A stretch of 64,000 nucleotides of DNA from an uncultured Eubacteriales bacterium (GTDB lineage Bacteria > Bacillota > Clostridia > Christensenellales > Aristaeellaceae). The notes below the pieces were generated by a model. The model did not search any database. It worked only from the letters and a program-made list of their open reading frames with translations, and was not told where the DNA came from. The DNA lies in the NCBI GenBank assembly GCA_902793325.1, contig CADBCY010000013.1, forward strand, positions 1-64,000, written 5' to 3'. Position numbers and translations under genes: made by a program. The first letter of the stretch is position 1. Every line of letters starts with the position of its first letter. Below are positions 51,814-55,025 of this stretch, piece after piece.

Positions 51814-53217
51814 TCAGTCGATCTCCACCCACTCATACCCGAGGTACGTGGTGAACGCTTCCTTCAGGATGGCCTTCATGTGGCCCACGCCCACGGAGGT
51901 GTGGTGCTTGAAGCCGCCGCGGGCCAGCTTGATCATCTTCTCCTGCATGTCGGGCACCTCGCACACGCCCGCGCAGCCGAAGTAGCCGTCCTCGATGGGA
52001 TCGTCGGTGAACGCCGCCTCGGAGGCGTACATGATGATCTTGCCGTCCTTGGTCTGGCAGTTGGCCAGCGTGGTCGGGAAGGCGCGGATGCGGCCCTCGT
52101 TGGTGCCCCAGCCGGAGCCGGGATCGCCCTTGGCGAACATCTTGTGCTCGGTCACGGTGCCACGGCCGGTCATCAGTTGCTGGGCCACGGGGCCGCAGTG
52201 GAACAGCACGACCTTGTTCTCGTCGTCGCCATAGTTGTTGTTCCAGTCCAGCACCGCCGTGGGCATCTCGCTGGCGAGGCTCATGGCGCGCATGGTGAGC
52301 GCGGAGCACATGTCGATCTCGCAGGAGGCCGGGATGCCGCGGTCGTTGAGCTCGCTCAGCAGCACGCACGGGCACACGCGCAGGATGGTCTCCATCTCGT
52401 TCCAGCAGCGCAGCGTCAGCGCGTCCAGGTGGTACTCCTCGATGTACTCGTCGATCACGCAACTGATCTTGGACAGCATCAGCTTGTTCTTCGCGGGCAC
52501 GCCGGAGAAGTCGGTGTACTTCTCGAGCGCCGCCTGCTTGGCGAGCACCTTCGCGTCGTCGTCCGCGAGCTTGCCGACCTTGAACACCAGCTCGGACAGG
52601 TCGAAGGATTCGACGTTGATGCCGTACTTCTGCAGGGTGATCTCGTCGAAGCGCACGGTCTTGAACGCGGTGGTGCGCGCGCCGATGCAGCCCACGTTGA
52701 AGCGCTTCATGCCGTTCACGACGCGGCACACGGCAGCGAAGTCCACCATGTTCTGCCGGAACGCCGGGGTCAGCGGGTGCACCACGTGGGGCTTTAGCAC
52801 CGTGAAGGGCACGCCGTACTGGGTGAACACGTCGGTGACGGAGAACTTGCCGCAGAAGGCGTCGCGGCGGTGCTTGAAGTCCATCTTGCCGATCTCGTCC
52901 GGGTATGCCTGCATCAGGATCGGCACGCCCGCGTCCTGCAGCGCGGTGATGGCGCCGTTCTCGTCGGCGAAGATGGGCATGGAGAAGATCACGCCGTCGA
53001 ACTGCCCCTCGTGCTCCTTGAGCCACTTGGCGTACAGGAGGCCCTCGTCGCGGGTCTCGATGCCGCCGTAGCGGGTCAGCTCCGCGTCCATGGCGATGTA
53101 GTCGTATCCGGCGTCGGTCACGGCCTTGATCATGTCCTCGCGCGCGCCGTAGATCAGCTCGCCCGGCATGAAGCCGCGGTTCGCGAACGCCAGCGCAAAT
53201 GTCATTTTCCTGCCCAT
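51814..53217 (-). CDS. L-fucose/L-arabinose isomerase family protein
   Basis: 467 residues related to the L-fucose isomerase superfamily, with the C-terminal FucIase-type domain around GRGTVTEHKMFAKG and the conserved metal-site candidates Glu and Asp in the CWNEMETILRVCPC and LDWNNNY segments. GGAGG lies upstream of the ATG. First gene of the operon with kinase and dehydrogenase. The family includes several aldose-ketose isomerases, so fucose itself is only one possibility. Its promoter region carries two AraC-type direct repeats. Confidence 0.85.
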   Translation of the reverse strand: MGRKMTFALAFANRGFMPGELIYGAREDMIKAVTDAGYDYIAMDAELTRYGGIETRDEGLLYAKWLKEHEGQFDGVIFSMPIFADENGAITALQDAGVPILMQAYPDEIGKMDFKHRRDAFCGKFSVTDVFTQYGVPFTVLKPHVVHPLTPAFRQNMVDFAAVCRVVNGMKRFNVGCIGARTTAFKTVRFDEITLQKYGINVESFDLSELVFKVGKLADDDAKVLAKQAALEKYTDFSGVPAKNKLMLSKISCVIDEYIEEYHLDALTLRCWNEMETILRVCPCVLLSELNDRGIPASCEIDMCSALTMRAMSLASEMPTAVLDWNNNYGDDENKVVLFHCGPVAQQLMTGRGTVTEHKMFAKGDPGSGWGTNEGRIRAFPTTLANCQTKDGKIIMYASEAAFTDDPIEDGYFGCAGVCEVPDMQEKMIKLARGGFKHHTSVGVGHMKAILKEAFTTYLGYEWVEID

Positions 53218-53283: not shown

Positions 53284-53355
53284 ATCTTAACAAACCGCCG
53301 GTGTGAAAGATAGGGCCAGTTGTACACTTTTCTTTGAATTTGTACGCACTTTTCT
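53284..53355 (-). promoter_or_regulatory. Isomerase-operon promoter region with paired AraC-type sites
   Basis: Two direct repeats, TTGTACACTTTTCT (53320-53333) and TTGTACGCACTTTTCT (53340-53355) on the plus strand, start 20 bases apart, about two helical turns. They lie upstream of a weak -10-like TAAGAT (minus strand, 53284-53289) with no good -35. That is the pattern expected of an activator-dependent promoter used by an AraC-family protein such as the divergent PocR-like regulator. The rest of the 336-base gap holds the regulator's promoter and small repeats. Confidence 0.6.
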
Positions 53356-53384
53356 GGACATTTACCGCGAGGGCGTAGTATAAT
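53355..53384 (+). promoter_or_regulatory. Promoter of the PocR-like regulator
   Basis: TGGACA (53355-53360) and TATAAT (53379-53384) with 18-base spacing. The -35 touches the second AraC-type repeat, so the regulator could also control itself. Confidence 0.6.
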
Positions 53385-53441
53385 GATTAGGCAACCGGCG
53401 CGAAGCGCGGTTGGCCGGGTCGCCGGGCCGCAAAGCGCGCA

Positions 53442-53532
53442 CGGCGACAATCACAGATATAATAAGTTAGAAATACTTATGTATTCCGGATCGCCGAGGT
53501 AGAAAACGACTGCGCCGACAATCAGACATATA
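53442..53532 (+). repeat. Direct repeat pair in the regulator 5' leader
   Basis: CGGCGACAATCACAGATATA (53442-53461) and CGCCGACAATCAGACATATA (53513-53532) flank an ATAAG/CTTAT inverted repeat in the roughly 160-base leader. They may be regulatory sites or leader structure. Confidence 0.4.
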
Positions 53533-53553
53533 CGGCAGCGGAGGTGCGCCGAC

Positions 53554-54426
53554 ATGTTCTCATCCTTCGATTTCGTCAAGCTGAACGCCATCCTGCGGGA
53601 CTTCTACAACCTGACGGGCATTCGCATCACCGTGTTCGACGACGCCTGCCGGGAGATCACGTCCTACCCCGCGCAGGTAGCGCCCGTGTGCCGGTACATC
53701 CGCGGCAGCGCCGCCGCCGCTTCCGCCTGCCATGCCTGCGACCGGGAAGCCTGCGGCCGGGCGCTGGCGCTGCGCGCGCCCTACGTGTACCGCTGCCACG
53801 CGGGGCTGACGGAGGCCGTGACGCCGGTATTCCGCGGGGATCTCGTCGTGGCCTACGTGGCGTTCGGGCACCTGTTCTGCTATCCCTCCCGGGCGGAGGG
53901 GCGCGCGGCGATCCTTTTGAGCTGCCGGGCCTACGGGCTGGACGAGGCCGCCCTCGCCGCGCTGGTGGACGCCCTGCCGGACACGGAGGAAACTTATATT
54001 TTGTCCGCCGCCCATGTGTTGGAGGCGCTGGCGAATTACCTGTGCATGGACCGCATGATTATGCTCCGCCAGCAGGCGCTGCAGGTGCAGATCGACGAGT
54101 ACATCTCCGGCCACTTCACCGAGGACATCAACGCCGACAGCCTGTGCCGGCGGTTCAACATCGGCCGCACGGCGCTGTACGAATTCGCGCGGCAGAACTA
54201 CGGCATGGGCATCGCGCGGCACGTGCGCCAGCTCCGCATCGAGCACGCCAAGCAGTTGCTCGCCGCCCGCCCGGAGCTGAACATCAGCGAGATCGCCGAT
54301 GCGTGCGGGTTCTCCGACTACAACTACTTCATCACCGTATTCAGCCGCACGGTGGGCATGTCGCCGAGGAAGTACCGGGTGCGGGAGGGCCGGGCGGCGC
54401 CCGAAGGAACGGAAAACAGGGCGTAG
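53554..54426 (+). CDS. AraC-family regulator with PocR sensory domain
   Basis: 290 residues. The N-terminal PocR domain (about 5-150) has the LNAILRDFYNLTGIRITVFD start, the Cys-rich CRYIRG..CHACDREACGRA segment and the YRCHAGLTEAVTPV core; PocR domains sense small diols or sugars-derived ligands. The C-terminal AraC domain (about 180-280) has both helix-turn-helix motifs (INADSLCRRFNIGRTALYEF; ISEIADACGFSDYNYFITVF). GGAGGT lies 8 bases before the ATG. It is divergent from the isomerase operon, its probable target, and convergent with a cobalamin riboswitch. Confidence 0.9.
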   Translation: MFSSFDFVKLNAILRDFYNLTGIRITVFDDACREITSYPAQVAPVCRYIRGSAAAASACHACDREACGRALALRAPYVYRCHAGLTEAVTPVFRGDLVVAYVAFGHLFCYPSRAEGRAAILLSCRAYGLDEAALAALVDALPDTEETYILSAAHVLEALANYLCMDRMIMLRQQALQVQIDEYISGHFTEDINADSLCRRFNIGRTALYEFARQNYGMGIARHVRQLRIEHAKQLLAARPELNISEIADACGFSDYNYFITVFSRTVGMSPRKYRVREGRAAPEGTENRA

Positions 54427-54438
54427 CACGCGGTTCGG

Positions 54439-54473
54439 GACGGCGCCGCTGCCCTGCGGCAGGCGCCGTCTTT
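54439..54473 (+). terminator. Terminator of the PocR-like regulator gene
   Basis: GACGGCGCC..TGCC with GGCA..GGCGCCGTC, then TTT, 12 bases after the stop. Read from the other strand there is no T-tract, so it should not stop antisense transcription. Confidence 0.75.
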
Positions 54474-54677
54474 CGCATGCTGCTCCCTGTTCGCTCAGAA
54501 TCCCGGGTTCCCGGCGCGCCGGGCGACGGACCGCGTCCAAGGGGGAAGGACGTTCGGCCCGCACAGGGCGGCACCCCTCGCCGTCCGCCGGGAACCCCGT
54601 GGCCGGATCGCGCCCTTACCGGGGGCGCTCCGCGGCCGGATCGCGCGAGCGACGGGTACCAGCCGGCGTCCGCGCGC

Positions 54678-54715
54678 AAAAAAGCAGGATCGTTCGACCG
54701 CCGTCGATACGTCCC
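54678..54715 (-). terminator. Candidate expression-platform terminator of the cobalamin riboswitch
   Basis: Minus-strand hairpin 54715-54687 (GGACG..TCGAC, GGCG loop, GTCGA..CG..TCC, with small internal loops) followed by TGC and six Ts (54683-54678). It lies about 90 bases beyond the aptamer and before the regulator gene. The imperfect stem makes the call moderate. Confidence 0.5.
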
Positions 54716-54806
54716 GCATCATGCGCACCGCCGGGGCATACCTCTCCCCTGTCGCGACGCTCAGGAACATATCTTTCTTTAGGCCGAAGAAATCGATACG
54801 CTTGTC

Positions 54807-54966
54807 CACGGGCAGGTCTTCTGACTCAGCATCCTCGCCGTCGCCCGCCTTCTCGGCTCTCGCCAATGGCTTCGGGCGCGGCTCCGCATCACAGCAGCGG
54901 TCCTGTCGGGGATTTGCACCCCGTTCCCGTATTCTCCCGGGCCGCCGAAGCGCCCGGGCACCCGTG
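54807..54966 (-). ncRNA. Cobalamin riboswitch aptamer
   Basis: Minus strand shows the conserved features in order: P1 strand CACGGG, GGGAACGGGGTGCAAATCCC, GACAGGACCGCTGCTGTGA, the B12-box-like GCCATTGGC, and AGTCAGAAGACCTGCC, closing with P1 strand CCCGTG. The 5' end has the expected promoter. Downstream there is no recognisable gene on this strand; the transcript would run into the 3' end of the PocR-like regulator gene in antisense. Within 54474-54806 I see only the candidate terminator, GC-rich direct repeats (GCGCGATCCGGCC twice) and weak ORFs. Confidence 0.9.
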
Positions 54967-54996
54967 GATTTCCCACTATCAAATTGTCACGAATAC

Positions 54997-55025
54997 ATGA
55001 TACCATACTTTCCGGGATTTGTAAA
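54997..55025 (-). promoter_or_regulatory. Promoter of the cobalamin riboswitch transcript
   Basis: Minus-strand TTTACA and TATCAT with 17-base spacing, about 30 bases ahead of the aptamer. Confidence 0.75.

Follow-up and report, generated by a model that had tools for sequence, protein, structure and literature searches.

The window analysed here is a stretch of 64,000 nucleotides (nt) from an uncultured Eubacteriales bacterium (contig CADBCY010000013.1), and its minus strand carries a cobalamin riboswitch that leads into a conserved structured element. This element very probably belongs to a conserved, riboswitch-controlled noncoding RNA (ncRNA). We regard as the best explanation, on the whole a probable one, that it is a free-standing structured ncRNA which is controlled by a vitamin B12 riboswitch and probably acts in trans. 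The architecture and its conservation are read from the sequences themselves, whereas how the RNA responds to B12 and where it ends are what we infer from them; action in trans is suggested because the element is conserved beside unrelated neighbours.

The riboswitch and the element behind it

An earlier note on this DNA, made from the sequence alone, had described a complete cobalamin aptamer with its own promoter and a candidate terminator, no recognisable gene downstream of it and a PocR/AraC regulator gene (pocR) convergent to it, and each of these features was recovered (Table 1). The covariance-model search that the note had proposed gave a full-length RF00174 match, which was the single match at gathering scores in the window; three further cobalamin riboswitches are present elsewhere in the genome of the window (G000). 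A box of the form TTTACA...TATNAT was found upstream of all 12 homologous loci described below, in a motif look-up run without a shuffled control.

The riboswitch and pocR are 0.4 kb apart. On the minus strand no protein gene was recognised between them, as the note had held, but it had overlooked that a conserved noncoding element occupies the gap behind the terminator, at about 54670-54506. Two minus-strand reading frames were rejected as genes: the tblastn matches of a 123-amino-acid (aa) frame span the aptamer and the adjacent stretch, at loci whose riboswitches lead ordinary genes, with one match (L042, 30% identity) extending into the structured element, and a 112-aa frame matched the window's own loci only. 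Moreover, no ATG-started frame through the element is common to the 12 homologues (GTG and TTG starts lay outside that comparison), and the region is so GC-rich that stop-free frames carry little meaning.

The element was first noticed by comparing the riboswitch with 60 relatives. It was recognised, one copy each, in 12 of the 28 genomes of the genus (G000, G001, G003, G004, G005, G006, G011, G015, G019, G021, G023 and G025), and every copy lies 150-286 nt behind an RF00174 match, measured from the CAGAAGACCUGCC end of the aptamer to the first loop. Since RF00174 has 89 matches in 27 of these 28 genomes, only some of the riboswitches of the genus carry the element. A hold-out covariance model from four copies, with the window omitted (R2), found the window copy at 54629-54506 with 46.8 bits (E 2e-5), the top match in 64 kb, the next one reaching 15.6 bits; in doing so it set hairpin 1 onto an extra hairpin at 54629 and not onto the hairpin at 54670. 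A model from five copies with the window among them (R1) detected the element in 8 of the 28 genomes at E <= 0.1 in a whole-genome search and, with stricter filters, in 7 of 300 genomes of the family, all of them from this genus.

The order within the element is a UGGUACC hairpin, a linker, a closing stem, a GUGCCG hairpin and a hairpin with a C-rich loop, and in the window the terminator is about 8 nt away from the element. The C-rich loop reads UUCCCCCUU in the window, in G025 and in G006 (inside a longer loop), CUCCCCCUG in G003-G005 and GCCCCCUGC in G019. In most copies, unguided folding of the core returned hairpins 3 and 4 together with the closing stem. Base changes on both sides of a pair occur in hairpins 1 and 3 (e.g., C-G to U-A and G-C to A-U). 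These two hairpins were counted by fixed offsets on sequences placed by hand, because free MAFFT alignment gave wrong closing-stem registers; for the closing stem and hairpin 4 the comparison was made by eye. The pairing count scored as mismatches the hairpin 1 pairs of G003, G004 and G005, whose register is shifted. In the window copy about 38 nt are inserted, and hairpin 1 has imperfect pairs. A kissing pair between the loops UGGUAC and GUGCCG is feasible at -6.4 kcal/mol, GGUACC is also self-complementary at -8.2 kcal/mol, and neither loop varies; the two loops may kiss and thereby hold the fold.

No family in Rfam 15 matched the window between 54400 and 54800 up to E 5, and in eight relatives the strand of the element gave no match, the opposite strand showing one sub-threshold overlap (L044, E 0.2, 22.8 of 80 bits). 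A known RNA family was thus rejected for the element. No description of it was found in the literature searched, a search whose coverage left out most subscription papers.

Table 1. Features of the locus (positions are those of the window)
Feature	Position	Strand	Basis and details
Cobalamin riboswitch aptamer	54794..54980	minus	RF00174, 96.7 bits (gathering score 31.5), E 7e-23, model positions 1-189 of 189
Riboswitch RNA promoter	54997..55025	minus	TTTACA-17-TATCAT, TG before the -10 box
Antiterminator left arm GAUAUGUUCC	54764..54773	minus	directly 3' of the aptamer; 10 base pairs (bp) with 54715-54706 GGGACGUAUC, -13.8 kcal/mol
Switchable intrinsic terminator (predicted)	54678..54717	minus	GCGGGACGUAUCGACGGCGGUCGAACGAUCCUGC + UUUUUU; -18.9 kcal/mol for the 42 nt preceding the U-run
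Conserved structured noncoding RNA element	54506..54670	minus	hold-out model R2; homologues in 11 more genomes
Hairpin 1, loop UGGUACC	loop 54661-54655	minus	part of the element
Extra hairpin	~54629-54609	minus	in the window copy alone of the 12 copies
Closing stem GGUUCCCGGC/GCCGGGAACC		minus	after the linker, between hairpins 1 and 3 in element order
Hairpin 3, loop GUGCCG	loop 54574-54569	minus	part of the element
Hairpin 4, C-rich loop UUCCCCCUU	loop 54547-54539	minus	part of the element
Candidate 3' end of the ncRNA, long hairpin GAACAGGG...CCCUGUUUUC	54412..54492	minus	home-made terminator scan, -18.7 kcal/mol, ending at 54416
pocR, PocR-domain AraC-family regulator gene, convergent to the riboswitch	53554..54426	plus	PF10114 (E 3e-30), PF12833
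fucI, fucose-isomerase-like gene, divergent from pocR	51814..53217	minus	PF02952

The expression platform and the predicted 3' end

The terminator that the earlier note had proposed is supported by the folding of the 42 nt before the U-run, and a simple terminator scan did not list it. Similar terminators occur at the same stage in relatives. Its 5' arm, GGGACGUAUC, can alternatively pair with GAUAUGUUCC next to the aptamer. A similar antiterminator pairing of 8-10 bp was found by a script in 6 of the 11 relatives (10 bp in G025, G021, G023 and G015, 8 bp in G011 and G001), and in G001 both sides of the pairing are changed while the pairing is kept. By its sequence, the riboswitch looks like a transcription-termination platform that should be OFF with B12.

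Farther downstream, the predicted fold of 54505-54410 (-52.8 kcal/mol) is one long hairpin that carries UUUU at 54416-54413, and an end near 54413, as predicted, would let the minus-strand RNA overlap just the last 14 bases of pocR. In 10 of the 11 relatives the home-made scan, which was run without a control, placed a terminator-like site no more than 60 nt from the 3' end of the element, a weak one in G011; it placed none in G021.

Distribution and neighbours

A pattern scan of GTDB r220 with the two loops and their spacing returned 44 stretches. Eleven of these are members, all in Clostridia/Clostridiales records, and each has a riboswitch upstream (nine by a quick motif search, L077 and L101 by Rfam). 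The other 33 stretches, from many other groups, gave no riboswitch in the quick motif search, which had also missed two of the 11 true ones, and they were treated as chance. Four of the members come from ruminant gut (roe deer twice, sheep and goat), and six others bear RUG isolate names, which we take to mean rumen genomes. In a UvrC tree of 24 genomes with midpoint root (G025 and three others were left out for want of a UvrC match at 1e-60) the element is present in both deep clades, in 6 of 7 and 5 of 17 genomes, with 3 label changes against 8.1 after shuffling.

The genes 3' of the element differ. According to Pfam the neighbour is a convergent pseudouridine synthase in G003, G004 and G005, a convergent TrkH in G001, a convergent phosphoesterase in G015 and G023, and convergent pocR in the window. 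In G021 and G025 it is a same-strand acsE, the gene of a Wood-Ljungdahl methyltransferase, identified by a pterin-binding Pfam domain in G021 and by near-identity in G025. Long frames without a Pfam match lie on both strands in G006, and in G011 and G019 the contig ends 304 and 219 nt behind the element.

Proposed mode of action

With B12 bound, the terminator would form ahead of the element and only a short aptamer transcript would be made. Without B12, GAUAUGUUCC would pair with the 5' arm of the terminator, and the polymerase would transcribe the element and stop at a second terminator, in the window the one that overlaps the last bases of pocR. Through its exposed C-rich loop UUCCCCCUU the RNA could then base-pair with Shine-Dalgarno (SD) sites of the form AAGGGGGA, and in cells short of the cofactor this pairing would reduce the translation of functions that depend on B12, mRNAs of corrinoid proteins being the best candidates. 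We put forward loop-SD pairing as the likeliest mode, and corrinoid-protein mRNAs as the target, tentatively, as a possibility suggested by the sequences. Bolder, and more doubtful, is the proposal of a new class of B12-riboswitch small RNA (sRNA) acting in trans, in which the C-rich loop would block the AAGGGGGA SD of the corrinoid proteins of methyltransferase systems and the UGGUAC and GUGCCG loops may kiss. If this were true, a cofactor-poor cell would stop making the proteins that need B12.

In G000, AAGGGGGA stands before ATG at 27 sites against 7 for the reversed pattern, and because it is thus about four times commoner, it is an ordinary SD form in this genome. Corrinoid-protein genes with AAGGGGGA before ATG were found in G000 (two copies), G025 (one) and G006 (one), the genes of the latter two carrying PF02607, and the C-rich loops of these three genomes all contain UUCCCCCUU. 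As free strands, the window loop pairs with the G000 corrinoid site at -17.4 kcal/mol, with the SD of fucI at -12.5 kcal/mol and with that of pocR at -6.0 kcal/mol. No corrinoid protein was met among the AAGGGGGA sites read in G003, G004 and G005. The sites read were all 27 in G000, all those listed in G005, G025 and G006, 9 of the 23 listed in G003 and 5 of the 33 listed in G004, where the total among the matches listed is at least 33. From these readings 76 frames were kept (at least 60 aa or leaving the stretch), four of them from G000 loci already read, and shorter ones were dropped.

The two corrinoid copies of G000 stand at contig ends, namely the end of C4 and the start of C46 (L288 and L289), where the gene starts have identical coding letters. 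The copies are identical over the 32 residues compared, and one of them adjoins an AcsE-like gene (32% identity). They probably stem from a gene duplication at which the assembly broke.

Several observations weigh against the reading given so far. The whole-genome search with R1 missed 4 of the 12 copies (G001, G003, G004 and G005). Tested within the 12 loci alone these reached 24.9-31.6 bits (E 0.002-0.02), and their membership rests mainly on DNA similarity and motifs. Copies were selected by the motifs GGUACCCG and GUGCCG, and the invariance of the two loops is therefore partly a matter of selection. The full 165-nt window element folds otherwise when taken alone, the proposed fold being given by the 94-nt core and by a 240-nt stretch, and the best fold of G019 is without hairpins 3 and 4. 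Folding z-scores of nine copies were uneven (-2.4, -2.0, -3.8, -1.7, -2.2, -3.0, +0.3, -3.4 and -0.5), seven being at or below -1.7 and two at +0.3 and -0.5. In stem shuffles the observed pairing was modestly unusual, being reached by 50 of 5000 for hairpin 1 and 34 of 5000 for hairpin 3. The best antiterminator partner found by the script was weaker or misplaced in 5 of the 11 relatives (G019, G003, G004, G005 and G006), and terminators of the same kind are visible there as well. As to the free-standing nature of the RNA, a leader role is possible in G021 and G025, where acsE follows, and in G006 two terminator-like sites are followed, about 330-360 nt from the element, by the start of a long same-strand frame without a Pfam match. 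As to the target, AAGGGGGA is a common SD in the genus and also precedes genes that resemble valS and clpB by eye. Because unrelated genes share this SD, the corrinoid target is a weak idea and serves as a lead only; other genes, too, recur among the AAGGGGGA sites.

Alternative explanations

The element could be a decoy like EutX/Rli55, which binds and titrates an RNA-binding regulator. That system has the same overall architecture, in which a riboswitch and a structured stretch behind it make up a separate transcript (PMC5821096). The conserved loops would suit protein binding, and an ANTAR protein is encoded in 25 of the 28 genomes of the genus; however, its presence, in 11 of the 12 genomes with the element and 14 of the 16 without it, does not track the element. 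ANTAR sites follow a hexaloop rule, A1 and G4, and the 6-nt loop GUGCCG of hairpin 3 has neither, in copies that were partly picked by GUGCCG. We regard a decoy as a minor possibility.

It is unlikely that the element regulates acsE in cis as a second stage and that the orphan copies are remnants left after gene loss or rearrangement. Such a leader would explain why acsE stands behind two copies and why the presence of the element tracks that of the gene (at E <= 1e-40, acsE was found in 11 of 12 carriers versus 4 of 16 non-carriers; Fisher p 0.0006, uncorrected for kinship). Nevertheless, acsE was not seen behind 10 of the 12 copies, nine of these ten are followed within 60 nt by a terminator-like site (a weak one in one case), and copies without acsE behind occur in both deep clades. 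In addition, G015 has a riboswitch-acsE copy that lacks the element (L199), and G023 shows a similar start at a contig end (L057).

The earlier note had proposed a device like AspocR of Listeria, in which at low B12 the RNA would read through pocR as antisense, or into the sugar operon, and shut pocR off. The convergent geometry at the 3' end of pocR and the termination-type switch fit such a device, as does the Listeria precedent (PMC8079631), and the short U-run of the end hairpin (UUUUCC) would make leakage possible. At the same time, the convergent arrangement, for whose conservation in related genomes the note had suggested looking, was not seen at any of the four pocR orthologs of the genus (56-64% identity; G023, G015, G012 and G021). 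In those four genomes RF00174 occurs on the pocR contig only in G015, about 105 kb away; the pocR contigs of G023 and G012 are short (3.4 and 5.1 kb), yet 1.9 and 4.2 kb behind pocR are covered. In all three other genomes that have both (G015, G021 and G023), pocR and the riboswitch-ncRNA are on separate contigs. Because of these two findings, pocR-fucI on the one hand and riboswitch-ncRNA on the other look like two modules that meet by chance in the window. The element is also kept beside other neighbours, and the predicted terminator ends within the last 14 bases of pocR. Thus, of the mechanism inferred in the note, the termination-type riboswitch leading into a noncoding stretch is supported, and an RNA that exists for antisense to pocR is quite unlikely.

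Next to pocR and divergent from it are the fucose-isomerase-like gene, an FGGY kinase gene and a mannitol-1-phosphate-type dehydrogenase gene, with no pdu or cob gene adjoining. The note had read these neighbours as a sugar operon; as far as adjacent genes go, a sugar isomerase, a kinase and a dehydrogenase in place of pdu/cob genes speak against the AspocR logic. Its expectation of a second instance of a rare device is also dated. A 2023 survey infers 292 cases of antisense-acting riboswitches, and it reports cobalamin riboswitches at the pocR genes of Vagococcus and other Listeria (PMC9943018).

That the locus is a decaying riboswitch left after the loss of its gene is most improbable, for which the missing protein gene and the insertion and imperfect pairs of the window copy might speak, since promoter box, aptamer, terminator and element are all retained in 12 copies.

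Relation to known systems

The preferred reading, a free-standing ncRNA under riboswitch control, has precedents. EutX/Rli55 of Enterococcus and Listeria has a cobalamin riboswitch, its own promoter and termination control of a trans-acting ncRNA that reaches its full form only when B12 is absent (PMC5821096), AspocR/Rli39 of Listeria is an RNA that is long only without B12 (PMC8079631), and the full forms of both restrain B12-dependent pathways (PMC5821096, PMC8079631). The element shares with EutX/Rli55, in sequence architecture alone, an ncRNA with its own promoter behind a riboswitch. In contrast to EutX/Rli55, it has another structure, with UGGUACC, GUGCCG and C-rich loops and with no ANTAR-type dual hairpin seen, and its control is predicted from sequence. 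With AspocR/Rli39 it has in common, in the window, a cobalamin riboswitch convergent to a PocR-type regulator, but this association is confined to one genome of the genus, and the RNA here is a separate, conserved ncRNA with a predicted terminator at the 3' end of pocR and no pdu/cob genes adjoining.

Firmicutes also have sRNAs with C-rich loops, such as the UCCC-motif Rsa RNAs of Staphylococcus. The element resembles these in having a hairpin with an unpaired C-run that could pair with SD sites, and it differs from them in being set by a metabolite riboswitch. To our knowledge, few metabolite riboswitches drive trans-acting ncRNAs instead of genes. Within this small kind, the cobalamin-controlled trans-acting ncRNAs, the element seems to be an RNA distinct from those described.

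Another ncRNA under cobalamin control, with a fold of its own and from gut Clostridia that are uncultured, would point to more than one origin of the riboswitch-plus-sRNA design, and orphan riboswitches in metagenomes would then be worth reading for hidden RNAs. The supply of B12 would also be tied to corrinoid-dependent one-carbon metabolism in a way that can be tested.

Observations on neighbouring and related loci

The gene fucI is divergent from pocR at all three orthologs whose 5' flank is present (L006, L007 and L009), the flank of L008 leaving the contig. Beside the match to the fucose isomerase C-domain, the isomerase of the window matched sulfoquinovose isomerase weakly and in part (77.8 bits against a cut-off of 700), which makes fucose no more than a candidate substrate.

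A gene for acsE lies under a cobalamin riboswitch at L199 (G015:C87), L057 (G023:C76), L192 (G021:C264) and L188 (G025:C30), and in G015 and G025 this copy is additional to another acsE copy.

At three other riboswitch loci (L002, L050 and L169) a C-rich-loop hairpin 3' of the riboswitch terminator (e.g., UUUCCUCCCCUUGUUU) could pair with the SD of the same mRNA. As homologues of the element these leader hairpins were rejected, R2 giving no match to them; by their sequence they could possibly be a second control stage in cis. Finally, in four genomes (L037, L042, L045 and L046) two tRNA-Met genes stand upstream of the riboswitch and divergent to it.

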